From NCBI GenBank assembly GCA_028687335.1, contig JAQUAI010000007.1, positions 1-64,000 on the forward strand: 64,000 bases of DNA, written 5' to 3'. Below are positions 1 through 17,031 of this stretch, piece by piece. Numbering within the stretch: the stretch's first letter is position 1; the number at the start of each line of letters is the position of its first letter. Source of the DNA: Gallionella sp. GTDB lineage: Bacteria; Pseudomonadota; Gammaproteobacteria; Burkholderiales; Gallionellaceae. A model generated the notes under the pieces. It was given only the letters and a program-made list of their open reading frames with translations, did no database searches and had not been told where the DNA came from. Position numbers and translations under genes: made by a program.

Positions 1-1
1 T

Positions 2-118
2 GAAAAAGCACTTGCAGAAGCGGTAAGAAAGCTGAATCATCGTCCCCGCAAATGCCTCAACTATCGGACTCCTCATGATGTCTTCCTAGAAGCTTGCCGT
101 GGTGCGGTTGCAATGTGA
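2..118 (+). CDS. IS30-family transposase, C-terminal end (cut by the window edge)
   Basis: The open frame entering at the left edge ends in LNHRPRKCLNYRTPHDVF, the hallmark end of IS30-family DDE transposases (LNxRPRKxLxYxTPxEVF). Only 38 codons are visible, so the rest lies upstream and completeness cannot be judged. The stop is followed at about 119-135 by sequence that could hold the terminal inverted repeat. The IS abuts the methyltransferase gene, whose N-terminal region is missing, so it probably inserted into that gene. Confidence 0.85.
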   Translation, partial: EKALAEAVRKLNHRPRKCLNYRTPHDVFLEACRGAVAM

Positions 119-1808
119 ATTCACCAATACTGACCCTGAGTTCAAGACGAGGCTTTACGAAACGTTTCTCCAGGAGAGCGATACTACGAACACATTCGGT
201 CAGTTTTTTACTCCACGCAAAGTGGTCGGTGCCGTCCATGATATGGCTGAAATTAGCTCGATGTCCGCAGGTAAGTCAATTTGCGATCCCGCAGCAGGTG
301 TAGGTGGTTTCGTGCTTGAGCCGATGGCACGCAATCTGGAAGCGCAATGGACGATGAAGACAAACGCCATGACACCGAAACATACATGGCACTCCTTTGA
401 GTTGATCCCTAAAACCGCCATTCTTGCCAAGGCCAACGCTTTAGTTCATTGCGGCGATTTGCTTGCTGAGCAACCAGGTCGAATAAAGGCATTTGCGAAC
501 TGGCTAAACAACGTATTCGTCTGCGTCGAAAAAACGGCACTCGGCACCCTCGACCAAATGGACAAAGAAAAATTCGATGTCATTATCACCAATCCACCGT
601 TTGTCGTATCTGGTTCCGCCGACTTCCGAAAACTCATTACCAAAAACGCTGCACGCAAGGCTTACTTTTCTAGGAAGTACAGCGGTGTCGAGGGACTTTT
701 TATGCAGTACATCGTGCAGGCGCTGAAAAAGAGTGGCGATGCTTGGGTTCTGCTCCCGGAGTCTTTCCTTCTCAGAACCCCGGACGAACTTTTGCGCAAA
801 TGGATACTCCAAAATTGCATCGTTGATTTGGTTGCGTTGTTGCCGGAAAGAACCTTCTTCAACACACCGAAGCGTGTCGTGATTCTGCATATGAAGAAAC
901 GTGACAAACCTCTTGCGCCAACCAAGTTGGATGAATCCTTGACGAAGGAAAAGATTCTAGCTTTTGTGGTTAATGAAATTGGTGAAACGCGGGATGCCAA
1001 GCGATTCCACATTGATGAAAACGACCTGCCAGATTTAGTGAAGGCGTATGCAATCCATAAGGCAGGGCTTCCAGTTCCATACAAACGAGCATCGCTGATA
1101 GGTGCATCAGCGTTTGGTGCATCGTCGTTTAACATTCGTCATGCTTGGAAAAAGGCAGATGCAAGAGAACTCGGCTTGCTAAGCTCAGAAGACGATCCTG
1201 TAGCCGAGAAAGCAGCCTTTGACACGCAGATGGTCAGACTCAAGGAAATGGCATCTGAGTTCATGGACGGGCATAGACTCACCGCCCCTCCTCCTGATGC
1301 ATGCGATAGAAGAGCTATTACATTGGGCGATCAGACGCTATTCAGCCTGCGGATTGGGAGGCGCGTTCTGAAGAAAGAAGTTTTCCAGAAAAGGACTGGC
1401 ATTCCTCTATTCAGCGCCAATGTCAGAAAGCCATTCGGTTATGTAGCACAAGCCAATGCCGGAGAATTGAAATTTGGCGGGGCACTCTGGAGTCTTGATA
1501 GCGATTTCGACTGTCGCGGCGTTCCTCCCGGAGAACTGTATTCAATCACCGACCATTGTGGGGAGGTGTGTCTTCTTGTTGATGACATCGATCCTCATTA
1601 TCTGGCTCGACAAATACGACAGGCCGGGATTGGAATGGGATATAACCGGGATTTTCGACCATCGCTTGGCGTGATTAAAGATTTGGAAATCAATCTGCCA
1701 ATTGATAAGAATGGAAAATTCGATTTGGCGTTGATGCAAGCATGGACTGAATTTCACGAGGAACTGCTTAGAAGAAAGCAAGCGATTGGAAAACTCCTGA
1801 TTGCTTGA
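99..1808 (+). CDS. N-6 adenine DNA methyltransferase with specificity-like C-terminus, 5'-truncated
   Basis: The protein begins inside a type I/IIG-style methyltransferase. The family landmark GQFFTPRKVV lies at about residues 36-45, although 150 or more residues usually precede it. SAM-binding motif I (DPAAGVGGF, about 63-71) and catalytic motif IV (NPPF) are intact. The last 200 residues, with GIPLFSANVRKPFGYV and a terminal long helix (WTEFHEELLRRKQAIGKLL), look like a target-recognition half as in HsdS, giving an M-S fusion. The apparent GTG start overlaps the IS30 transposase end, so the true start was most likely removed by that insertion. Without its N-terminal domain the enzyme is probably inactive. 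No restriction subunit is visible. It would have been defence or modification cargo of the Tn7-like element. Confidence 0.8.
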   Translation: MVRLQCEFTNTDPEFKTRLYETFLQESDTTNTFGQFFTPRKVVGAVHDMAEISSMSAGKSICDPAAGVGGFVLEPMARNLEAQWTMKTNAMTPKHTWHSFELIPKTAILAKANALVHCGDLLAEQPGRIKAFANWLNNVFVCVEKTALGTLDQMDKEKFDVIITNPPFVVSGSADFRKLITKNAARKAYFSRKYSGVEGLFMQYIVQALKKSGDAWVLLPESFLLRTPDELLRKWILQNCIVDLVALLPERTFFNTPKRVVILHMKKRDKPLAPTKLDESLTKEKILAFVVNEIGETRDAKRFHIDENDLPDLVKAYAIHKAGLPVPYKRASLIGASAFGASSFNIRHAWKKADARELGLLSSEDDPVAEKAAFDTQMVRLKEMASEFMDGHRLTAPPPDACDRRAITLGDQTLFSLRIGRRVLKKEVFQKRTGIPLFSANVRKPFGYVAQANAGELKFGGALWSLDSDFDCRGVPPGELYSITDHCGEVCLLVDDIDPHYLARQIRQAGIGMGYNRDFRPSLGVIKDLEINLPIDKNGKFDLALMQAWTEFHEELLRRKQAIGKLLIA

Positions 1809-1981
1809 GCTTTGCAAACGAGCATTCCCAAAAAAGGGAGACAATTTAGCGTTGTCGCTTACTTTTGATCGGGGCTCTTCCAACCGGGAGTAGATGCCTT
1901 CTTTGCAATCTCTGACCTCAGCTTATGAAATATCCGAGCTAAACAACGATACAAGACAATTATTAAAGAAAGGAGCAAGTC

Positions 1982-2315
1982 GTGAGTTCCAAGTCCATTA
2001 TCACGCACATCACTCCAGTTGGTGGGAACATCTTCGCTGACTTGGGGTTTGAGCCAGAAGAGGCCACAAGGCTGCTTGCTGAAACTGACCAAATCATCTC
2101 AGAAAAGCTGGCCATCAAGGAATCTCTGATGGCCGAGCTGGCAGTTTGGATCGACGCGAATAAGCTGAAGCAAGCAGAAGCTGCGGAAATTATTGGAGTC
2201 ACACGTCCGCGACGTTTCCGACGTAATCAACAAGAAGGCCATTAAATTCACCATCGACGCATTGGTGGACATGCTGGCGAGAATAGGCAAGCACATTCAG
2301 TTGTCTGTTCAGTAA
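1982..2315 (+). pseudogene. XRE/HigA-like antitoxin, frameshifted
   Basis: The first 77 codons (GTG start, good AGGAG site upstream) match the XRE antitoxin family with the signature FADLGFEPEEATRLLAE, then KQAEAAEIIGVTRPR of the helix-turn-helix. One extra base near 2213 moves the reading into a short tail ending at 2245. In the next frame the expected C-terminus continues perfectly (VSDVINKKAIKFTIDALVDM and on to the stop at 2315). In this family a RelE/HigB-type toxin usually lies directly upstream; none is recognisable in 1809-1981. So this is a decayed or mis-sequenced antitoxin without its partner. The frameshift lies in the recognition-helix region, which would abolish DNA binding. Confidence 0.8.
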
Positions 2316-2333
2316 TCTCCCCTCCGCGCATCG

Positions 2334-2645
2334 TCAGATGCTGGGGTTTTTACTTTCTGAAATTAGCTCGATGCCCGTCAATATCCTGAATCTACCGGTG
2401 TTGATTGCCTTGCCCTTCGGCAGCATTGGTTCCGCAGCCTTTTGAAGGCGCTTGATATCCCCAGCTGTAAGTTGGCCGTCATCAGCCTCGTAGCTAGGAA
2501 GCACCTCTTTTGCAAAACGGGAGATGGCGAGATGCACCACCATCGTTTCACTTACATCCATTTCAGCGGCCAATGCCTTTAGGGTCTCTCTTGTTACCCC
2601 ATAAGGAGAGTCTTTTGACTTGAATTTCAGAAGCAGCTTACTCAT
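2334..2645 (-). CDS. Hypothetical protein, possible small DNA-binding cargo protein
   Basis: The reading frame could start earlier, but the codon at 2645 has a purine-rich AAGGGG site at the right distance and gives 103 residues starting MSKLLLKFKSKDSPYGVTRE. A short basic strand is followed by two predicted helices (RETLKALAAEMDVSETMVVHLAISRFA), a pattern reminiscent of ribbon-helix-helix antitoxins. That assignment is a guess from the pattern alone, and I do not recognise the family. It is convergent with the broken antitoxin gene and ends only 18 bases after it. It lies in the cargo part of the Tn7-like element. Confidence 0.5.
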   Translation of the reverse strand: MSKLLLKFKSKDSPYGVTRETLKALAAEMDVSETMVVHLAISRFAKEVLPSYEADDGQLTAGDIKRLQKAAEPMLPKGKAINTGRFRILTGIELISESKNPSI

Positions 2646-2705
2646 GGTTGCCCCTTTGTTTTGGTATGCATTCATTTTGACGGGTAGCAACGTACCCAAA
2701 AGCTA

Positions 2706-2723
2706 AAGCCCCTTTCGGGGCTT
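2706..2723 (-). terminator. Small hairpin in transposon cargo, possible terminator
   Basis: A perfect 7-bp stem (AAGCCCC / GGGGCTT) with a 4-base loop lies between two minus-strand cargo genes. It lacks a strong T-run on the minus strand, so termination is uncertain. Confidence 0.3.
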
Positions 2724-2904
2724 GGGGTAGGCTGAAGCGCCAAATACAGTAGTGGTCGCTCCAGCAATGCGACGCACTCTATATGATTTGTTAGCAAATT
2801 TCTACTGCCATCCGGATTTTCCGGGGCAGCCCTTGCCGGCCCTGAATACGACAACACAAGAGATGCAGATTTGTCTCAAGAGGGGGGGAGAATGCGTGAC
2901 ACAG

Positions 2905-3099
2905 TCACCGTAATTCTGTCTTGAAACACTTGGAGCAAGTCCATCGAACAGCAGTCATCGTCTGTCCATCCATTTGCCAGTCATGCTCACAGTTGGCCCG
3001 CTTGGCCAGCGAAGTAGTCTTCCCGGATGGCGTTAAAAATTCGGTATCGGTTTGATTCGCAGTCTTGGCGTTTTCAACTCCTTCCTCTTCAGCGCTCAT
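2905..3099 (-). CDS. Small cysteine-containing hypothetical protein
   Basis: This 64-residue protein has an acidic, low-complexity N-terminus and a compact C-terminal block CEHDW...WTCSKCFKTEL in which C, H, C and C could bind one zinc ion, like a tiny zinc ribbon. An AGGAGCT ribosome-binding site lies five bases before the ATG, which supports it as a real gene. It is the nearest minus-strand cargo gene downstream of tniQ. Function unknown; a role in transposon regulation would be speculation. Confidence 0.5.
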   Translation of the reverse strand: MSAEEEGVENAKTANQTDTEFLTPSGKTTSLAKRANCEHDWQMDGQTMTAVRWTCSKCFKTELR

Positions 3100-3153
3100 G
3101 ACCAGCTCCTAAATTAGGTAGTAATTGAGTCATTACAGTATATGACAAGGCGG

Positions 3154-3321
3154 ATGCAGCAGAACACTTATCCCGTCTATCGTTACGACTGCCACGACTA
3201 CAATGGAATGCGAACCCAAAAAAATCACGGATTATCCGAAGCGACCGCCGCCCAACTCGCATTCAGCGATGAGGCCAATCCTAAGCAAGTCCCAATAGAT
3301 TATTTTGACCAGCAACTGTAA
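3154..3321 (+). CDS. Short orphan reading frame antisense to the tniQ 3' end
   Basis: A 55-codon frame starts with ATG and ends in PIDYFDQQL, overlapping the last 22 bases of tniQ on the opposite strand. A weak AAGG lies three bases before the ATG. The composition (tyrosine- and aspartate-rich) is protein-like, but no family is recognised. It could be a tiny gene, a gene remnant or chance. Confidence 0.2.
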   Translation: MQQNTYPVYRYDCHDYNGMRTQKNHGLSEATAAQLAFSDEANPKQVPIDYFDQQL

Positions 3322-4898
3322 CTTGGGATTGATCGCTGCAATATGGCGGCCTCAACCATTTGCCGAAAGTGCTCCCCTACAGCGCTATGCTTAAATCCGC
3401 GCCTTGTTCTTGACGATGTAAACACGCGGGCGACTTCCGGCCTTGGCCGCAACTGGGAGCGCATCTTCTCCCAGTACCACTCCACCCATGCCCTCGCTTG
3501 GCCAGGCGACTTGGCGGCATCCACAAAGTTCAACGCCTCCATATCAGGGACAATCTCTCGCACCCGCTCAAGTGTCAGATCAGCTAAAGCACCTTCACTC
3601 AATCCGAGCTGCCTCCCTGCGGCGAACATCACCTTGTCCCGAATCAAACAAGCACGCTCCACCTTGTCCAGTGTGTCGGCAATCTGGTGATCCATGCTCG
3701 TCAGCAGATTTTCGTACACCTCTTCCAAAACGGGCGGTGCCTTCCGATCGGCAAGATGTGCATAAATATCGCGACCAGATAACTTTCTCGCTGAAGTATT
3801 GCTGAATCTCCCATATTTGGCCTCGACAACATCAGCAATTGCGTTAGCCTCATCTCGACTGATCGGAGCATATCCGCCACGAGCCTCGCGCCGAATCACA
3901 TCCTCATACCAGAATGGGCGGCACGTGCCGTCACCCTTCAAATCAGCATAGCGCAGCTTGTTCTCGCGTATCAGGCTGCCGAAATTAGTGGGCCAGTCAT
4001 CCAGCAGCACGGCAAGCCAGCGGAACAACTCACGCCTCATCTGCAACGAGGCCATTTCCAACCCCATTTTCGGCCAGCCGCCCAAATCAATGCCATGCAT
4101 CCTGTTTGACCCAGTCAGACGTTCCCTCGTCTTGGGCGACATCAATCCCGCAATCAGCGTGCGAAGCCCGTCAAAGAAAACCAGCGAATGCATAGACGGG
4201 TTGCCCGCCCAGGCCGCATAGCCTTGCCGCAACATCGCATCCAGCTGCGCTTGAAACATTACCAGGGCTTCATCCGGCCGGCCTGTCTGCGGGCTTTTCC
4301 GCAAATCGAAGCCGCATTTCCAGCAATGCACATTCAAGTTAGCTTGAGGGTAATGCTGCCGACCCAGCATATCGGCGCGATGGGGAGCTAACGGCGACTG
4401 GCACTCGGGGCAGGCATCCCGCAAATAGCACTCATGCTTTGCACAGACCGTCGATAGCGCCAAGCGCCAGCCTCTCCTGAAGTAGGGCTCCGCATCTTCA
4501 GCCAGACAATGCGGACAGAACATCAAGCCAGGACGCTTGCGGGTGCGGTGGAATATCCCCAAGGGGATAAGCCAGCGGGTCAGTCCATTGGGATTGTGCC
4601 GCTCGAACAACCACCCCTCGTATGTACGCAGAGTTGTGCCCTCAAACTGCTCAGCAGTAGCCCCGGTAACCTGGACAAGGATCTCGCCGATCTCAGGCGG
4701 AGCCGAGCGGTCAATATCCCGATTCCAGATCGCGCTGTTCTGCCCGAACAGGATGGCGCACATGGTCTGCACCTTATACCCATGCGCGTGCGACAGGCGC
4801 ACGATCCAAGAACTCAGCAATTCGTCCGTCTGCGGCTTCAGGTGAACCGGCCACAGCGTCCCGCTCAACCCGAAAACCACCTCAGAGCGGATCTGCAT
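3300..4898 (-). CDS. tniQ: TniQ/TnsD-type transposition target-selection protein
   Basis: This protein of 532 residues has the TniQ N-terminal domain (WPVHLKPQTDELLSSWIVRL at about 16-35) followed by paired zinc fingers (FCPHC, then CPEC and CWKCG at about 125-200), the arrangement in TnsD/TniQ proteins. The remaining 300 residues form a long C-terminal region, as in TnsD-like proteins that read a specific DNA target. The element sits in comM, so recognition of comM is the natural inference. The start overlaps the tnsC end by 17 bases, implying translational coupling. Only one TniQ is present and no Cascade genes, which argues against RNA-guided targeting from this locus. Confidence 0.88.
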   Translation of the reverse strand: MQIRSEVVFGLSGTLWPVHLKPQTDELLSSWIVRLSHAHGYKVQTMCAILFGQNSAIWNRDIDRSAPPEIGEILVQVTGATAEQFEGTTLRTYEGWLFERHNPNGLTRWLIPLGIFHRTRKRPGLMFCPHCLAEDAEPYFRRGWRLALSTVCAKHECYLRDACPECQSPLAPHRADMLGRQHYPQANLNVHCWKCGFDLRKSPQTGRPDEALVMFQAQLDAMLRQGYAAWAGNPSMHSLVFFDGLRTLIAGLMSPKTRERLTGSNRMHGIDLGGWPKMGLEMASLQMRRELFRWLAVLLDDWPTNFGSLIRENKLRYADLKGDGTCRPFWYEDVIRREARGGYAPISRDEANAIADVVEAKYGRFSNTSARKLSGRDIYAHLADRKAPPVLEEVYENLLTSMDHQIADTLDKVERACLIRDKVMFAAGRQLGLSEGALADLTLERVREIVPDMEALNFVDAAKSPGQARAWVEWYWEKMRSQLRPRPEVARVFTSSRTRRGFKHSAVGEHFRQMVEAAILQRSIPSYSCWSK

Positions 4899-5778
4899 TC
4901 GGCGTTTCCTTACGAGCCACGTATGGGCACTCGGTGATCACCTCCATGGTGATGCGCTCTTCCCCTGTCTTGATGGCATGCTTGGCTGCACTGCGCAGTA
5001 TCTTGGCCACCTCGCCAATGACACCTTCGCTCAGACCATACAACTTGCCGGGCAATTCGCCTTTGTAAATCATTGACGGCTGCCTGAGCGGCATCACGAA
5101 TTCAAAATTGCGCAGCAGCTTCTTGAAGTCATCCCCTTCTTTCCATCGCGGGAGCGGCCTCAGCGGAAATCTGCTCTTGAACTGGGGTTCGCTATCAATC
5201 GCGTACTCGGCCTCCGGAGTGCCTGCCGCAACGATGCTGATCTTCAACTCGTTGCTCAGGTATTTAAGCATGTTGAGGAAGAAGCGCTGCTTGGTCACAC
5301 TGCCGGCGAGCAGTGCGTTCAGCTCATCAATCATCAGAATCTTGGTCTGAATCTGCGGCAGGATGTCCATCAGCTGCATCAGCTTCCGGTCGGGCGCATC
5401 GTTCCGTTTGACGCTCACCCCGAGCAGCATCAGCATTTTGTCCAGAAAAATGTTCTCGGTCGGGCCCGGAGGTGCCTGCACATAGATCACCGGCGCATAG
5501 ACAGTATCGAACCCCCTCCGATCCTCGGCAGGATGACGCGCCAAGAATTCTTTCAGTATCTCGGTTTTCCCATTGTCGGATCGCCCAACGATCAGCATGT
5601 TCGGCATCCGGTTGGTCTTGGGGTGGCTGAGCAGATCTTCCATCTCGGCCAATATCTCCGAGGCTCGCCCGTAGGGGATGAACACTGGCTTGTCGATGTG
5701 CTCCAGCCTTTCCGCGTTCGAAGCATCAAGGAGCGCGGTTGCGCGGTCAGATAGTTTTCTGGCTGTGCTGTTCATCAA
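4882..5778 (-). CDS. tnsC: TnsC/TniB-type AAA+ transposition regulator
   Basis: This 298-residue ATPase links the target-selection protein to the transposase. Walker A is GRSDNGKT (about residues 65-72) and Walker B is KILMIDE (about 145-151), followed by a sensor region IVAAGTPEA. Length and the early RASEILAEMEDLL segment fit the TniB branch rather than the longer classical Tn7 TnsC. ATG and the preceding stop overlap by four bases with tnsB, so all transposition genes are coupled. All catalytic motifs are intact, so the element may still be active. Confidence 0.9.
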   Translation of the reverse strand: MMNSTARKLSDRATALLDASNAERLEHIDKPVFIPYGRASEILAEMEDLLSHPKTNRMPNMLIVGRSDNGKTEILKEFLARHPAEDRRGFDTVYAPVIYVQAPPGPTENIFLDKMLMLLGVSVKRNDAPDRKLMQLMDILPQIQTKILMIDELNALLAGSVTKQRFFLNMLKYLSNELKISIVAAGTPEAEYAIDSEPQFKSRFPLRPLPRWKEGDDFKKLLRNFEFVMPLRQPSMIYKGELPGKLYGLSEGVIGEVAKILRSAAKHAIKTGEERITMEVITECPYVARKETPNADPL

Positions 5779-7664
5779 GACTCCCGAATCCCTTCAAAGG
5801 GCGTAAATTCGTCCAGCTCATCATCTGGCTCTGGCTGGGGCGCAGGTTTCTTTGGCTTTCCCACCCCCGTGTTCTGGAGCGAGACCTTTGAGGACGCGTC
5901 CCACTGTTTGCGCCGTTGCTGTTTGACCCTGGCTGATTTCGTCTTGGCCGACTCGCTCGCCACAATATCCCGCATCTGGTCGATGGTCTTAAAGATCAGT
6001 TCCTCGTTGGTCGCCGACATGGACTCCTCGCGCAACTGCTTCTTGGCATCCTTAAGCTCCCAATAGCTGATCGGCGGACGAGACAAGTCGCGGTAGGGCA
6101 CCTCGATGTATTTGTCCGACTCTGGCTCGAACATCCAGATTTTGCTGAGATCACGCGGGTCATACCGGCAGATGAATTCCTTCTTGCGTTTCCTCGCGTT
6201 CGGATCTGGCGCATGCACGAACCGGCGCAGCGCATCCGTCCAGTAGGAAATGCCCATGAGTTGTATCCCGTATTCCTGAACAGTGCGCATGATGAAGGGC
6301 ATGAAGTCTATTTTCAGGCGCTCTTCGTCTTGGACGCGCATTGGTATGCCCGTTCCTCTGATCGTTTCTGTGCCGAATATGCCGCGTTCCCATTGAACAA
6401 TCGGAGGTATCCCATCATTTCCGGCATGAGGCTTCTGGTGGTAGATACCGAGGATGAAAAGGTTGAACCACTTCTCCAGCGCGCCAAGCGTCATCACCGC
6501 GCGTCCCTCGGAGTCGTACTCCTGCTTCTCCTGCACATTGGAGAACGTTGTTCCCGGCAACTCGTTATGCACTTCATGCATGTATGTGCGAAACGCGCGC
6601 TCCACATCGCCGCCATATTGCGGACGCCCCTTGGGGCGATGCTCGATAATGATTCCGTACTGCTTGGCAGCCTGACCCAGAAGCGTCCCGCGAAACTCTT
6701 TCGCATTGTCCGTATGCACCTTATGCATCACTCCCCAACAGGGCCATGAAAGATGATCCAGCCCGAGACGGGCAAGATAGATGTCCTTGCCCAGAATGGC
6801 CCTCGACATGCACAGACCTGTTGCCAAGCCGCCCGGATTGTCGAGCGAAAGATAGAACCCGACGCACATCTTGCTGTAAACGTCTGTGGCGATGGTCAGA
6901 TAAGGGCGATTGATGGCCTTGCGGTGTTCATCGTCAACGACGATGACATCCATGGGAGTGTGATCGATCTGCACAACCGCAAGAGGAAAATCCGCCCCCG
7001 GAAAAGAACCACGGATAGGCTGAAAGCGCTCATCGGCAGCTTTGGAACCCCTGCGCCTGCGCAAGCGGTATTCCTCACTGATCGCAAATATGCGGTTGCG
7101 TACCGTTGTTGGGTCAGGAGGTGGCAGACCGCTCTGGATGCACAGCTTTCTGACCTCATACGCCGTTTTGGCAGGTGTCCGAACTTGCTTGGTCAGGAAG
7201 AAATTTTCAATGGTTGTACCGATCACTTTTTCGACATCCTCGTCCAAGCGTTTTATCCCGCTGTCCTTCCTGGGTTTTCGCATTAGAGACGAAACAAGTC
7301 CGGTTGACTCGTAATCTTCAAGCCAGCGATAAACGGTGGCAATATGTTTTTCCACTGAATCGGCAACCTTCTGGACATCGGCGCGCGTTCTTTTGGTTCC
7401 CATATGTACCAGAGGCTCGATTGCTTTATAGATCTTGACGGCACGTTTCCATTTTGAGGGCTCGACAGCCCCCATGTCCGGCACCGAGACCATTGGCGAT
7501 TCCATGTCTGGTACCAGGTCGGCGGCTTCAACTTTTTTGCTCACACCAATCTCATTCTTGATCAGCACCTGAGTAACGCTAGTCATATCCACCACACAGT
7601 AACGGAGACCGTCATATCGGACAGTCATGCCGGGAATGATGCGTAAAGTCGAGAGTTTGCTCAT
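5775..7664 (-). CDS. tnsB: TnsB/TniA-type DDE transposase
   Basis: The 629-residue protein carries an rve-type catalytic core with D in VVQIDHT, D in VHTDNAKEF and E in GGDVERAFRT, the full DDE triad. Upstream lie helix-turn-helix segments (KVADSVEKHIATVYRWLEDY) for binding the transposon ends, and the C-terminal part has the Mu-type beta domain and a charged tail that probably contacts TnsC. It would join the 3' ends to the target. The start overlaps the tnsA stop by four bases. No truncation or missing catalytic residue is seen. Confidence 0.92.
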   Translation of the reverse strand: MSKLSTLRIIPGMTVRYDGLRYCVVDMTSVTQVLIKNEIGVSKKVEAADLVPDMESPMVSVPDMGAVEPSKWKRAVKIYKAIEPLVHMGTKRTRADVQKVADSVEKHIATVYRWLEDYESTGLVSSLMRKPRKDSGIKRLDEDVEKVIGTTIENFFLTKQVRTPAKTAYEVRKLCIQSGLPPPDPTTVRNRIFAISEEYRLRRRRGSKAADERFQPIRGSFPGADFPLAVVQIDHTPMDVIVVDDEHRKAINRPYLTIATDVYSKMCVGFYLSLDNPGGLATGLCMSRAILGKDIYLARLGLDHLSWPCWGVMHKVHTDNAKEFRGTLLGQAAKQYGIIIEHRPKGRPQYGGDVERAFRTYMHEVHNELPGTTFSNVQEKQEYDSEGRAVMTLGALEKWFNLFILGIYHQKPHAGNDGIPPIVQWERGIFGTETIRGTGIPMRVQDEERLKIDFMPFIMRTVQEYGIQLMGISYWTDALRRFVHAPDPNARKRKKEFICRYDPRDLSKIWMFEPESDKYIEVPYRDLSRPPISYWELKDAKKQLREESMSATNEELIFKTIDQMRDIVASESAKTKSARVKQQRRKQWDASSKVSLQNTGVGKPKKPAPQPEPDDELDEFTPFEGIRES

Positions 7665-8353
7665 AGGTCAGTCCATATCCGAGTCTTCATGGTCAATGGC
7701 TGGTGCAAATCGCACTTTACCCAACGGCGAGCGATCATGCACCAGAGCGTCCACATGGCTTCTCCACGCAGCGTCTTGGATGAATAGCAGGCTTCGAGTA
7801 ACGTATGGGGATCAGTTTCCTCCATCTCTTTCAGAAAAAGAATCAGCTTCTGGTAGTGATGGACCTGGAACGGAGCGAAACGGTATGACCAGAGGAACTG
7901 GACGTTCTTGAGGTATTCCGTGCGGATCTCCCGCTCCGTCAGGATGCGGAACTCATAACCGTTGGCCTTGGCGTAGGCGCGGGCAGCGCGGAACTTAGGC
8001 TTTAGCTGGTCTAGCTGCTGGATCAAGTCTTCGCGATACTTCACTTCACATAGCAACGGTTTGCGAGTCTGCGGAGGATGTCCGCGACGCTTGACCGTAC
8101 TGTAGGACACCAGCAGGTCGGGGGTATAGGTGCGCGCTTTGCCTTGGGAGTCGGTGTACTCGATCTTGACTGGCTGGCTTTGATACCATTCGACATCATG
8201 ATCCCAATGCACCAGCAACAGAAGATCGCGCTCGAGAGAGGACTCTAACTCTTGCCCATTTACGGATCCGGTAAGGCTCCTGACGTTGATCGGGATGCGC
8301 CGGACTCCGGTTGGGGTGCGCTCAATTTTTAGCCATGCGGTCACGAGTCGCAT
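7661..8353 (-). CDS. tnsA: TnsA-type heteromeric transposase endonuclease subunit
   Basis: This 230-residue protein matches TnsA: the nuclease fold shows E in SSLERDLL, D in TPDLLVSY and the EVK of LCEVKYRED, the catalytic E-D-(E)xK set of this restriction-enzyme-like family. TnsA cuts the 5' ends, giving cut-and-paste rather than replicative transposition. Family members average about 230-270 residues. It is the first gene of the operon and begins only 50 bases inside the transposon end, so its promoter must overlap the end and the likely TnsB-binding sites. Confidence 0.9.
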   Translation of the reverse strand: MRLVTAWLKIERTPTGVRRIPINVRSLTGSVNGQELESSLERDLLLLVHWDHDVEWYQSQPVKIEYTDSQGKARTYTPDLLVSYSTVKRRGHPPQTRKPLLCEVKYREDLIQQLDQLKPKFRAARAYAKANGYEFRILTEREIRTEYLKNVQFLWSYRFAPFQVHHYQKLILFLKEMEETDPHTLLEACYSSKTLRGEAMWTLWCMIARRWVKCDLHQPLTMKTRIWTDL

Positions 8354-8403
8354 TTTATACTCCCTGAAAAAGGGTATAGTCGCAAAAATCGTTCCCTTTT
8401 ACA
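8354..8403. mobile_element. Transposon right end (TGT/ACA terminus) with candidate TnsB sites
   Basis: Read inward on the minus strand, the end starts TGTAAAAGGGAACG and contains TGCGACT at about base 20; the same heptamer recurs 32 bases further in, overlapping the tnsA start. The repeats are candidates for TnsB binding sites. The outside base is the G of a GGCGG run that belongs to comM and would be one copy of a 5-bp target duplication (8404-8408). The partner end lies outside the window. Confidence 0.7.
8356..8378. promoter_or_regulatory. Inverted repeat upstream of tnsA, possible operator
   Basis: TATACTCCCT and AGGGTATA face each other across GAAAA, forming an imperfect inverted repeat three bases upstream of the tnsA start codon and within the transposon end. 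Its position suggests control of transposase expression, for example autoregulation by an end-binding protein. This is inferred from symmetry only. Confidence 0.35.
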
Positions 8404-9060
8404 GGCGGCAGCAACCCCCGCCCCGGTGAAATTTCTATCGCCATGCATGGTGTTTTATTTTTGGACGAACTACCGGAATTTGATCGCAGCGTACTGGAAG
8501 TGCTGCGCGAGCCGCTGGAAAGCGGGCGCATTACCATTTCACGCGCCGCGCGACGCGCCGATTTCAAAGCGCAGTTTCAGCTGGTCGCAGCAATGAACCC
8601 CTGTCCTTGCGGCTATCTCGGCCACTACAACGGCAAATGCCGCTGCACGCCCGACCAAGTCACACGCTATCGCGGCAAGATTTCCGGCCCTTTGTTAGAT
8701 CGCATCGACATCCAGATCGAAGTACCCGCCGTGTCGCAGGAAGATTTACTCAGACAATCCGACGGCGAAAGCAGTGCCACGATACAAGCCCGTGTCGAGG
8801 CGGCGCGGCAACGCCAACTCGCTCGGCAGGACAAACCCAACGCGCAACTTTCCGTCACCGAGATTGATACTTTTTGCGCGCCGGATGCGCAAGGCGAGGC
8901 ACTATTGCGGCAAGCCATCACCCGCCTCGATTTATCCGCCCGCGCCTATCACCGCATCCTCAAAGTGGCGCGCACCATTGCCGACTTAGCCGGACACGAA
9001 AACATCCAGACATCACACATCGCCGAAGCAGTACAGTATCGGCGTATGGATAAGAGTTAA
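8404..9060 (+). pseudogene. comM: comM (YifB, Mg-chelatase-like AAA+ helicase), 3' fragment
   Basis: The frame enters at GGSNPRPGEIS, directly after the transposon end, and runs through the Walker B region (VLFLDELPEF), the CPCGYLGH zinc-like segment and the C-terminal Mg-chelatase domain (RAYHRILKVARTIADL). Intact ComM is about 500 residues; the N-terminal Lon-like domain and Walker A are absent here and must lie beyond the other transposon end. ComM is a hexameric branch-migration helicase that promotes integration of transforming DNA. Splitting it should impair natural transformation unless the element excises precisely. A start at 8443 is open but would not yield a functional ATPase. Confidence 0.9.
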
Positions 9061-9762: not shown

Positions 9763-10692
9763 TTAGCGCGTCTCGTTTTTGCTGCTCAAACTAACCAATA
9801 AAACACCGGCCAGCACCAGTAGTGATCCGCTAATTTGCAGTAACGAAATGCTTTCGCCCAAAAAAACATATCCCATGTAAATGGTGCTTACCGGGCCGAC
9901 TGTGCCAATCAGCGAAGCACTACCCGAACCGATACGGCGAATAGCAAAAGACAGCAAAAAGACCGGTAACACGGTGGAAAAAATCGCCATTGCAATCGAC
10001 AGTTCATACACGCGCGGCGGCAAATCGAGCGCGCTCAGTGGGCGTGCCACCGCGAACTGCAACACGCAGGCAGCACTTGCCACCAGCGAGGCATAAGCCG
10101 TGAAACGCAATGCGCCGATACGCGCAATCGCATGCCCCGCACCAACCAGATAGATGGAATACGACAGCGTGCTGGCAAATACAAGCGCGACACCCATCAT
10201 CACGGCATCACTTTTATTTATTCCCACGTCATGTAAAAACACAAGACCGATACCGGCATAACTCAATGCCATCGCTGCAATAATTTTTGTAGTGATGCGC
10301 CGCTTGAACACAACTGCTGCCAAGATCACTGTCATGGTTGGATAGAGGAACAGTATTAATCGCTCCAGCCCCGCAGAGATGTACTGCAAACCGAGAAAGT
10401 CCAGATAGCTGGCAAGGTAGTAGCCCACCAAACCCAAGCCCAATACCAGTAAACGGTCATGCGCATTCAACGGCTCGGCGTGGCGATGGCGTACCCAGAG
10501 TGCCACTCCGATAAAAAACGGGGCCGAGAATGCCATGCGCAAAGCCAGCAGCGTCACCGCATCCACACGATCAAAATAGGCCAGTTTTACCAGGATCGCT
10601 TTAGCCGAAAAGCCGACCGCCGCGAGCAGCGCAAAAATAACGCCGAGAAATACATCCGGTTGGGCGAAGGTAGTACGAGTTTGATTTGCCAT
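9763..10692 (-). CDS. EamA/DMT-family transporter
   Basis: The 309-residue protein is almost entirely hydrophobic, with about ten membrane helices arranged as two EamA repeats (the first from FLGVIFALLAAVGFSAKAILVKL, the second from DAVMMGVALVFASTLSYSIYLV). This fits the drug/metabolite exporter superfamily; the substrate cannot be predicted. It starts MANQTRTTFAQPD and stands alone, convergent with psiE. Confidence 0.85.
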   Translation of the reverse strand: MANQTRTTFAQPDVFLGVIFALLAAVGFSAKAILVKLAYFDRVDAVTLLALRMAFSAPFFIGVALWVRHRHAEPLNAHDRLLVLGLGLVGYYLASYLDFLGLQYISAGLERLILFLYPTMTVILAAVVFKRRITTKIIAAMALSYAGIGLVFLHDVGINKSDAVMMGVALVFASTLSYSIYLVGAGHAIARIGALRFTAYASLVASAACVLQFAVARPLSALDLPPRVYELSIAMAIFSTVLPVFLLSFAIRRIGSGSASLIGTVGPVSTIYMGYVFLGESISLLQISGSLLVLAGVLLVSLSSKNETR

Positions 10693-11021
10693 GATGCTAA
10701 GACCCCGAGTGATGGACTAGCGGGTCTTAAACCAAAGCAACGCGGAAGACCCGCAGTTGCCCGATAAAAATACGACGTTAAAACAGGCGCGCGCTGCGGC
10801 AGTGGACTAGCGGTACTAGCCACAGTCGCTTGGCGATGTGAGATTGAACAGTGATGAATTGGATTTGCATGGGTAGGGAATATACGGGAGCCGCCTAGGC
10901 TACGTCAAACAGCCGCTGCGCCGCACTTCATGCAACCGCCTTTCATGGTGACAAGGCGGCAAGCAGGAAAGCATTTACCGGATATTTTGGAGCTCGGCAC
11001 GAGCGCCGAGAAAACGCGGGG
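10693..11021. other. Intergenic stretch between the EamA and hemerythrin genes
   Basis: About 330 bases without a convincing gene. It contains a 9-bp perfect stem (GCGGGTCTT / AAGACCCGC, about 10720-10755, 17-base loop) and the 11-mer TGGACTAGCGG twice (10713 and 10803). These may be decayed repeat material; no RNA gene or promoter could be assigned. Confidence 0.5.
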
Positions 11022-11480
11022 TTAGCCGCCGAACAACCGTCCGAAGAAGCCTCTTTTCTTGGCCACGAAAGCGTCGTGCTGGCTCAGATTAGCTTTGACC
11101 GCACCAACATAATCGGCATCGTCGCGCTTGATGTGGTTAAACAGCCAAGTGACCAGCAGGTGGTTGAGTTCTTCGGCTACATCTTCACCCATCGCAAAGC
11201 GGGTACGAAAATCGCCAACACGTTTGGTAAATAGCTCGTGTACTTTTTTGTGAGCCTTGAAGAAAGGATAGTTAGAATCTTCCTGCATGCTTTCTTCAAA
11301 AGCAAAATGCGACAAGGTGTAGTCGATCAATTCGTCGATCACCTTGCTTACGTCTTCACGGGAGTGTCCGCTGGTGCGCGCATCATGCAACAAGTTGATG
11401 TAATCCACGATACGGCGATGTTGTTTGTCAATCACGTCGATACCGGTATCCAACTCGGTCGACCAAGTCATTCTTGCCAT
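11022..11480 (-). CDS. Bacteriohemerythrin (copy 1)
   Basis: The protein has about 152 residues, starting MARMTWSTELDTGIDVID after a strong AGGAGG site; a longer upstream frame exists but lacks this support. The diiron ligands of the hemerythrin fold are visible: H in DKQHRRIVDYIN, H and E in SHFAFEES, two H in HKKVHELF, and H and D in FNHIKRDDADYV. It should bind O2 reversibly, for oxygen delivery or sensing in microaerobic cells. The C-terminal tail KKRGFFGRLFGG is glycine-rich and basic. It is paralogous to the next upstream gene. Confidence 0.9.
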   Translation of the reverse strand: MARMTWSTELDTGIDVIDKQHRRIVDYINLLHDARTSGHSREDVSKVIDELIDYTLSHFAFEESMQEDSNYPFFKAHKKVHELFTKRVGDFRTRFAMGEDVAEELNHLLVTWLFNHIKRDDADYVGAVKANLSQHDAFVAKKRGFFGRLFGG

Positions 11481-11747
11481 TACTGCCTCCTGAGTAAACG
11501 GTGGGTATTGAATGCCCACTCTAATTTGGATTGCCATGCTATCCGGCAATATCTGCTTTTCGTTTGACCTAGGTCAAATTGCAAATATCTGTGTCAGTAT
11601 AACGAGGATTTGCCATACCGAGCTAACAGGCTGAATATCAAACTGTTTTGACAATTCGAGGGGAGCAGGGGGGGCGGAAGCCAGAGCGCAACGATGGTTG
11701 GAAAAAATGGGCGCGAATAACGTGCCCACTGCGCCAAAGTTGCGACT

Positions 11748-12203
11748 TTATCCGAACAGTCTTGAGAACAAGCTCTTCTTTATCTCCACTGTATCTGTCC
11801 GTCGCTGCAGGTGTTCTTTCACCGTCTCAACGTAATCGGCATCGTCGCGTTTGATGTGGTTAAACAGCCAGGTAACCAGCAAGCTGTTCAAACCCTTGGT
11901 TACGTCTTCCCCGTTGTTGTAGCGGGTCTGGAAATCGGCCACACGCTTGGCGAATAGCTCATGTACTTTTTGATGTGATTTGAGGAAGGGATAGCCAGCT
12001 TCTTCCTGCAAGCTCTCCTCAAAACCGAAATGAGAGATGGTGTAATCCACCAACTCATCGATCAAGCTACCGATTTCCTCGCGCGAATAATTGTTGGCGC
12101 GGGCATCGTCCAATTGATTGATGTATTCCACGATGCGTCGATGCTGCTGATCAATCACGTCAATGCCAACATTGAGCTGATCCGTCCAAATGAACTTAGC
12201 CAT
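11748..12203 (-). CDS. Bacteriohemerythrin (copy 2)
   Basis: The 151-residue protein closely resembles its neighbour (IDVIDQQHRRIVEYINQLDDAR, SHFGFEES, HQKVHELF, FNHIKRDDADYV), with all diiron ligands kept and a similar tail ending LFSRLFG. The two genes are in tandem but 267 bases apart, so each probably has its own promoter. Divergence in the middle helices suggests an old duplication with possible specialisation, for example in O2 affinity. Confidence 0.9.
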   Translation of the reverse strand: MAKFIWTDQLNVGIDVIDQQHRRIVEYINQLDDARANNYSREEIGSLIDELVDYTISHFGFEESLQEEAGYPFLKSHQKVHELFAKRVADFQTRYNNGEDVTKGLNSLLVTWLFNHIKRDDADYVETVKEHLQRRTDTVEIKKSLFSRLFG

Positions 12204-12352: not shown

Positions 12353-16144
<3,792 letters not shown>

Positions 16145-16812: not shown

Positions 16813-17031
16813 GTGTCGATGCAATTGTCAGTCAAGGCTAACATCACCCTCACCGACAGCTTCGCCATGTTGCCCACCGCAGCGGTCAGCGGCTTCTACT
16901 TCTCGCACCCGCAAGCGCAATACTTTGCTACCGGTAAGGTGGATAAGGAACAGGTAGCGGATTATGCGAAGCGCAAGGGATGGACGGTGGAAGAGGCGGA
17001 GCGGTGGTTGGCGCCGGTGTTGAGTTATTAG
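16813..17031 (+). pseudogene. Duplicated C-terminal fragment of metH
   Basis: After about ten unrelated residues the frame repeats the MetH C-terminus ([18 protein letters not shown] to WLAPVLSY and stop). Only two amino-acid changes (L to V, Q to E) separate it from the real end. The fragment lacks all catalytic domains. It marks the downstream edge of the inserted DUF4160/DUF2442 segment. Confidence 0.85.
16843..17028 (+). repeat. metH 3' end, direct repeat copy 2
   Basis: Second copy of the 186-bp metH end. Homology starts abruptly after CAGTCAAGGCTAAC, so the upstream junction of the duplication is sharp at 16842/16843, and it ends at the stop codon. Confidence 0.9.

Follow-up and report, generated by a model that had tools for sequence, protein, structure and literature searches.

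How a Tn7-like transposon comes to lie in comM with no TnsF to be found is the question raised by the DNA analyzed here, the first 64 kb of contig C19 (the window) of the genome of an iron-oxidizing Gallionella sp. (G000; 2.40 Mb, 31 contigs, 88.5% complete). According to PMC10293859, entry of Tn6022 into comM requires the zinc-finger protein TnsF, part of which is an inactive tyrosine recombinase, and TnsF binding requires a segment in the comM Walker B codons. Insertion into comM is thus already known from Tn6022/AbaR; the new part is the reader. In the window element a single 532-aa TniQ probably acts as adaptor and comM reader together, by means of a fused C-terminal recombinase-like domain, in place of TniQ plus TnsF. 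Target change of Tn7-like transposons is an open question that bears directly on programmable DNA insertion.

A Tn7-like element splits comM

Window positions 1-8403 are confirmed as the comM-adjoining end of a Tn7-like TnsA-TnsB-TnsC-TniQ element. Its transposition genes all lie on the minus strand: tnsA (7661..8353; endonuclease of 230 aa; PF08722 E 5e-20, PF08721 E 8e-7), tnsB (5775..7664; DDE transposase of 629 aa; PF09299 E 2e-11, a weak rve match and an NCBIfam IS481-like match below cut-off), tnsC (4882..5778; TniB-type AAA+ ATPase of 298 aa; PF05621 E 1e-61) and tniQ (3300..4898; PF06527 E 5e-32 over residues 17-159). TnsB has the motifs VVQIDHT, VHTDNAKEF and VERAF at residues 230, 316 and 354, TnsC has Walker A- and B-like motifs, and TnsA has YTPD and EVK motifs, all of which we take to be the catalytic ones. 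An earlier note, made from the letters of this DNA, had described such genes with intact catalytic motifs, and they are present as it said.

The right element end (8346..8403) carries AGTCGCA sites at 8346 and 8379 and a terminal TTTTACA (8397-8403), and tnsA starts 50 bases short of the terminus at 8403. TTTTACA adjoins the comM codons GGC GGC AGC AAC CCC of the V-G-G-G-S-N-P site, with which the 3' half of comM, from Walker B onward, begins (8404..9060, plus strand; TIGR00368 positions 280-499, E 6e-85). The coordinates agree with the earlier report of genes ending 50 bases before an ACA terminus that abuts the GG-S-NP codons, so that the comM of a betaproteobacterium has indeed been entered at its conserved GGGSNP codons.

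The 5' half of comM, the TGT end and the GGCGG duplication that the note expected beyond the left edge of the window were all found on another contig, C24. There the 5' half (G000:C24:91940-92773; TIGR00368 positions 1-285) ends GTC GGC GGC GG, and the left end, TGTAAAC, follows directly after GTCGGCGGCGG. The element begins on C24 with TGTAAACAGG, its first base being C24:92767. As GGCGG precedes the left end and GGCGGC AGC AAC succeeds the right end, the duplication is GGCGG (8404..8408). When the flanks are joined they give one unbroken frame, a 497-aa ComM that is 84% identical to the intact ComM of a relative, in line with the comparison proposed in the note. An intact comM elsewhere or a missing 5' half would have spoken against the insertion; neither was found. 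No intact or second comM was detected in the 88.5%-complete genome, where two further TIGR00368 family matches reach only E 1e-5 and 2e-4. A chance or paralogous origin of the junction is ruled out, since the 5' half is present once, the insertion is flanked by a duplication and the joined flanks form an intact frame.

Tn7-like hallmarks are therefore present in the form of tnsA, tnsB, tnsC and tniQ with these motifs, TGT...ACA ends, repeated TnsB-type sites and a 5-bp duplication; TnsB-site-like motifs (TGCGACT-type) number 2 per ~150 bp at each end versus 0.20 per 150 bp in the rest of the element. The split separates Walker A, in one comM half, from Walker B, in the other. Given the split and the published ComM work cited in PMC10293859, transformation may be lowered in this bacterium.

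The two comM halves are on different contigs, with element arms of 5.7 kb to the contig end on C24 and 8.4 kb in the window. C19 starts with a 127-bp repeat identical to the ends of C15 and C3, and the middle of the element is accordingly unassembled.

A putative recombinase domain at the C terminus of TniQ

Most matches of short TniQs stop near residue 335 of the window TniQ, which runs ~195 residues further as a long C-terminal extension. Part of it, about residues 392-520 (3339..3725, minus strand), is most likely a degenerate, inactive tyrosine-recombinase domain lacking the last part of the catalytic domain, as judged from remote homology and structural models. A profile of this domain, aligned from 8 of 9 long TniQs (that of G454 was left out as its end is cut by the contig), was compared by hhalign with 20 Xer-type recombinases from related genomes and gave a probability of 92%, P 6.7e-7 and a score of 53.3. 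Control scores were at most 24.1 for 40 column shuffles and 16.2 for the reversed alignment. In the reverse direction the score was 50.8, while decoys of TnsA, TnsB, TnsC, TnsE-like and Tn6022-type TniQ proteins reached at most 25.2 and TnsF 29.8. With an AlphaFold model of the domain alone (pLDDT 75, pTM 0.64), the first two Foldseek matches were XerD 5dcf and 1a0p (probabilities 1.00 and 0.99); the full-length model likewise gave XerD first and second (E 0.10-0.15), with TniQ structures next.

By eye, the aligned part corresponds to the first part of the recombinase catalytic domain, the proteins stop before the HxxR/Tyr region, and the box I Arg position is occupied by Ser or Thr in 7 of the 8 members and by Arg in Vogesella. 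Box I Arg, HxxR and Tyr are the catalytic residues of these recombinases; with the first replaced in 7 of 8 members and the region of the others missing, the domain is most likely a degenerate and inactive recombinase.

Descent of the domain from TnsF was considered and set aside, the profile probability being 0.1 with only 3 TnsF sequences in the profile; a distant common origin is still conceivable. TnsF itself matches the Xer profile weakly (probability 6, score 29.8), so profiles this thin may miss a true relation.

Elements with a long TniQ lie in comM

Among 158 genomes of the family, 144 have some comM match (E 1e-7), and in at least 12 comM is broken at the same place, meaning that a comM piece ends at model position 282-286 or starts at 274-283: G000, G011, G015, G017, G019, G411, G418, G454, G472, G516, G524 and G535. 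Six of the 12 have a long TniQ (G000, G011, G017, G418, G454 and G535); G411, G472 and G516 were given no architecture. A pattern scan of a species-genome collection with the long-TniQ alignment returned 33 candidate stretches, of which 10 loci encode a relative, and at all 10 the comM 3' half adjoins tnsA. Five of these have a long TniQ (two Gallionella, G017 and G011, two Methylomonas, and Vogesella), three a short TniQ (Sideroxydans, which is G524, Pseudomonas sp. Bc-h and Paucibacter sp.), one a TniQ-TnsF fusion (Thioalkalivibrio sp. ALJ24) and one a separate TnsF (Hahella). Altogether, 9 of 9 long-TniQ elements are in comM: those of the window, G017, G011, both Methylomonas, Vogesella, G535, G454 and G418. 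A tenth match, G674, is the same Vogesella record and is not counted again.

The domain model matched 3 of 399 genomes of the order (its own, G418 and G674) and 1 of 329 of the phylum (its own), and the full TniQ model at E 1e-40 matched 2 of 369 genomes of the class (its own and G161). Among 72,556 plasmid records, matches to the fused TniQ occur in 266, none over 80% of its length, and the 25 matches listed cover residues 15-374 only. No relative came up when viral contigs were scanned by pattern.

TnsF (query Gallionella TnsF, E 1e-5) was found in 1 of the 158 family genomes, G015, and in none of the six members with a long TniQ. The note's proposal of a single TniQ as the likely reader is supported. 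For G000 this negative concerns the assembled parts, the middle of its element being unassembled; G418, with a long TniQ in comM, is 99% complete in one contig and also has no TnsF match. Elsewhere in the class, the same query did pick up a TnsF, at 44% identity. Since none was found in G000 or in the one-contig G418, long-TniQ elements reach comM without a recognizable TnsF.

Other readers are found at the same gene. G015, a different Gallionella, has in its comM a Tn6022-type element (L046, 797-6914) with a TniQ of 376 aa and a TnsF of 508 aa, at a site shifted by one base relative to that of the window. The TnsABC proteins of G019 (L047) are 87-97% identical to those of G015, its contig ends inside tniQ, and tnsF is not assembled. 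Short TniQs (342-390 aa) occur in comM elements of G524 (a complete element with both comM halves), Pseudomonas sp. Bc-h and Paucibacter sp. TniQ fused to the zinc-finger N terminus of TnsF was found beside comM in Thioalkalivibrio sp. ALJ24 (681 aa; L057 9998-12043) and G161 (674 aa; L082 ~9771-11795); one of the two may be the published case SCZ64694 noted in PMC10293859. Within Gallionellaceae, then, comM has been entered via at least three reader arrangements: fused TniQ, TniQ plus TnsF, and short TniQ alone.

A comM relic was also observed in a one-contig genome of another family (G028:C1, L045). Its 3' half is preceded by the right end of an element (TTTACA followed by GGCGG), its 5' end survives as ~35 codons, and between them is a transposase that is IS3-like by eye; no Tns genes matched there.

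Module exchange between backbones

Identities to the window proteins, in the order TnsA/TnsB/TnsC/TniQ, are 70/69/71/63% for G017, 70/66/69/54% for Methylomonas methanica and 53/60/64/41% for Vogesella. They are 42/48/41/56% for G418, 42/52/40/58% for G535, 42/50/38/58% for G454 and 42/49/40/57% for G011. In this second set TniQ (56-58%) is far above TnsC (38-41%), the reverse of the first. In a tree of 20 TniQs, built as the earlier note had suggested except that it includes no Acinetobacter TniQ, the nine long ones form one group in their middle part (support 90/96). As judged from these identities, the long-TniQ module has moved between different TnsABC backbones. The TnsABC tree was made without G019 (by choice, its tniQ being cut by the contig end) and G411 (tnsB and tnsC not in the contig), and the TniQ trees without G019 (47 aa).

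The proteins of G442 are 64/73/74/36% identical to those of G011, and G442 is the sister of G011 in the TnsABC tree (support 99/99), while its TniQ groups with the TniQs of G008 and of a second element of G017 (100/100 and 100/99 in two TniQ parts). The G442 element (L077, G442:C23, 5390-9978) adjoins a small gene, with no comM match within 38 kb. G008 has an intact comM, and its element is located on a different contig. With G011-like TnsABC, another TniQ and a place outside comM, G442 resembles a natural swap of the target selector.

In G524 (Sideroxydans sp. DeMMO2_34, L056), a 13-kb element without a TnsF match lies in comM, and its TnsABC is sister to that of G454 (support 100/100). Its TniQ (4301-5473) looks chimeric: the first half falls near G011, G535 and G454 in a weak group (80/87) that also holds three non-comM TniQs.

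Taken together, a natural target swap apparently occurred more than once: the fused TniQ is on different backbones in comM, and a backbone related at 73-74% (TnsB, TnsC) carries another TniQ elsewhere. On balance we favor, a little less firmly than the reader function itself, the view that TniQ fused to an inactivated tyrosine recombinase is a one-protein comM reader separate from TnsF, that a recombinase was thereby recruited a second time to these codons of one gene, and that the module moved between backbones and took its target along.

Insertion position and target duplications

An exact 5-bp duplication is present in 8 of 8 comM elements with both ends in hand, including 6 of 6 with a long TniQ: GGCGG in G000 and G017, GTGGC in G011, GCGGC in G535, GCGGT in G454, TTGGC in G418, GGGGG in G524 and GCGGC in G198. 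For the two Methylomonas elements and that of Vogesella both ends are not in hand. Because positions and hosts differ, several separate insertions are suggested.

Counted from the terminal ACA, the Ser codon lies at a distance of 5 in four TnsF-type elements (G015, G019, Hahella and G198) and 5, 5, 6, 6, 6, 7, 7, 8 and 11 in the nine long-TniQ elements. This hints that the fused reader is a looser ruler, from small numbers and with some rows related. The comparison used 13 of 20 rows, omitting Thioalkalivibrio, G161, Pseudomonas, Paucibacter, Sideroxydans, G411 and G028.

How the element may find comM

Under the mechanism we propose, a Tn7-like transposon with separate TnsA and TnsB would insert into comM by means of a single TniQ that combines the roles of adaptor and reader. 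Its core would contact TnsC, and the C-terminal domain, a tyrosine-recombinase catalytic fold minus its catalytic parts, would grip conserved comM DNA close to the Walker B codons, thereby placing insertion at the GGG codons. No further factor would be needed, and the element is presumed to transpose actively. If TnsABC and one reader are enough to enter a defined site in the chromosome, four genes do what takes Tn6022 five, and what aims a Tn7-like transposon becomes directly testable.

Several observations count against this mechanism. The XerD matches of the domain model are weak (E 0.04, TM 0.45-0.48), neither model has a Foldseek match below E 0.001, and the full-length AlphaFold model of TniQ is poor (pLDDT 54). 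A PDB sequence search with the domain alignment gave three matches, headed by a designed helical protein (E 0.18) and followed by XerD twice (E 0.44-0.45), and Pfam gave no Phage_integrase match in the 8 members scanned (E limit 10, with filters that drop most weak matches). The association of the long TniQ with comM is a correlation. Its nine elements spread over a 6-bp range of insertion positions, and the location of the G442 element is not a clean test of choice as the comM of that genome is fragmentary (best E 1e-27). In the three comM elements with a short TniQ the domain is absent and no TnsF matched within the 15-21 kb of sequence covered, and for this reason the fused domain is not the sole route to comM. 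Finally, the second half of the G524 TniQ groups with Paucibacter and a non-comM kind (88/87) in spite of its location in comM; either comM is read by this half too, or the swap took place once the element was already inserted.

The last two observations favor an alternative in which comM is read by the TniQ core (residues 1 to ~335) and the C-terminal domain has just an auxiliary role, such as contact with TnsC or stabilization of the complex: domain-free TniQs are in comM, and so is the G524 TniQ, which resembles the long ones in its first half but not in its second. However, short TniQs without a TnsF match are also found outside comM (G442, G008 and the second copy in G017), and the TniQ middle region and C terminus travel as one module over different backbones. 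In addition, a small TniQ is argued to be a hallmark of elements using an additional selector (Faure et al., PMC10293859). We therefore regard reading by the core as unlikely, if the most serious of the alternatives.

Less probable still is that these elements are guided to comM by a separate, unrecognized selector (encoded elsewhere in the element or by the host, or else a highly diverged TnsF) and that the fused domain is incidental. Selectors evolve fast, the window element lacks its middle in the assembly, and G524 needs an explanation of such a sort. Yet no TnsF match (E 1e-5) was obtained in six fused-TniQ family genomes with a query that found its 44%-identical homolog elsewhere in the class, and the elements of G011, G017 and the window have the fused TniQ in common but differ in the cargo proteins examined. 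That this is an ordinary Tn6022-family element is very improbable, for although target codons and gene order are the same and the left end bears a TnsE-like gene, no TnsF was found in the assembled parts, its TniQ has 532 rather than ~370 aa, and its TnsB and TnsC are 36% identical to those of a TnsF-bearing Acinetobacter element, against 51-53% for the TnsF-bearing Gallionella one.

Relation to known systems

The closest known system to the proposed fused reader is the Tn6022/AbaR backbone of TnsABC, a short TniQ and TnsF (Faure et al. 2023, PMC10293859), which is alike in its TnsABC-TniQ order, a comM target near Walker B, a duplication, a TnsE-like gene at the other end and a selector related to tyrosine recombinases. 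It differs in that no TnsF was found here and the recombinase-like part, resembling the Xer catalytic domain, is fused to TniQ. The comparison with AbaR made in the earlier note thus stands as to gene and conserved codons, but the element, with no TnsF found and an extra recombinase-like domain on TniQ, is not simply of that kind. The likeness of site is at the level of the Walker-B-proximal GGG codons; the Acinetobacter locus examined for the exact position showed no comM, and passages of PMC8767349 give no duplication sequence for Acinetobacter Tn6022.

The TniQ-TnsF fusion reported as one case in PMC10293859 (SCZ64694) likewise has adaptor and selector in one protein, but uses the TnsF N-terminal region with the whole catalytic domain missing, whereas the window TniQ has a catalytic-domain-like part. 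TnsD of Tn7 and TnsD-like proteins resemble the reader predicted here as single TniQ-family proteins with a long C-terminal extension that read the target directly; they differ in target (glmS rather than comM) and in an extension of multiple helix-turn-helix units rather than a recombinase-like one, and the window insertion interrupts its gene. The Tsy transposon in comM (ZooTsy) also has comM selected by a tyrosine-recombinase-related protein, but is moved by active tyrosine recombinases without Tns transposase proteins, according to PMC10293859. The type I-B1 CRISPR-associated transposon with a comM crRNA (review PMC11406308) is Tn7-like with a comM target and differs in being RNA-guided. 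No cas effector family was found among the element proteins scanned, which include only some of the cargo genes, and arrays were not searched; a CARF-ADA model matched the RdrB-like cargo protein of G011 weakly.

No TniQ-recombinase fusion reading comM is described in the titles and abstract openings of the open-licence papers that full-text searches listed, and the clade may be present in published data sets unlabeled. The word comM is absent from the main text of PMC8649781.

Left-end gene, cargo and neighboring sequence

A left-end gene of 560-632 aa is common to fused-TniQ, short-TniQ and TnsF-type elements. That of the window element encodes 632 aa, 24-25% identical to the products of same-place genes in other comM elements. 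It has no TnsE match in Pfam or PDB, where the PDB matches are antibody chains, and may be called TnsE-like by position and by homology within comM elements. TnsE is almost universal among comM-targeting elements according to the review PMC11406308.

Cargo of the window element spans 99-3300. It comprises an N-6 adenine DNA methyltransferase, type I-like (99..1808, plus strand; PF02384 E 4e-27, PADLOC MTase_I E 2e-29), a small helix-turn-helix protein (1982..2245, plus; PF13744 E 9e-8) and a 121-aa protein of a kind not recognized (2334..2699, minus), for which Pfam gave nothing at 0.001. Within the element, the contig breaks off in the 3' end of a repeated transposase-like gene (1..118, plus), part of the 127-bp repeat and IS30-like by eye only; NCBIfam gave no match for its 38 aa. 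As this sequence overlaps the methyltransferase reading frame, the true start of the methyltransferase is uncertain. The other broken end (C24:98463, the end of L040) holds the start of a gene that resembles, by eye, an IS256-type transposase, which makes it probable that two or more insertion sequences lie within the element.

Defense genes are part of the cargo of these elements, the window methyltransferase being one. Six proteins scanned in G011 (L041/L042) include a CBASS-type cyclase, E1-E2, a phospholipase and RdrA/RdrB-like genes, and ten scanned in G017 (L043/L044) include Wadjet JetABCD and a QueC-like gene.

Outside the element, the last 70 codons of metH are duplicated at window positions 16819-17028, 88.6% identical and ~0.7 kb behind the full gene (12353-16144).

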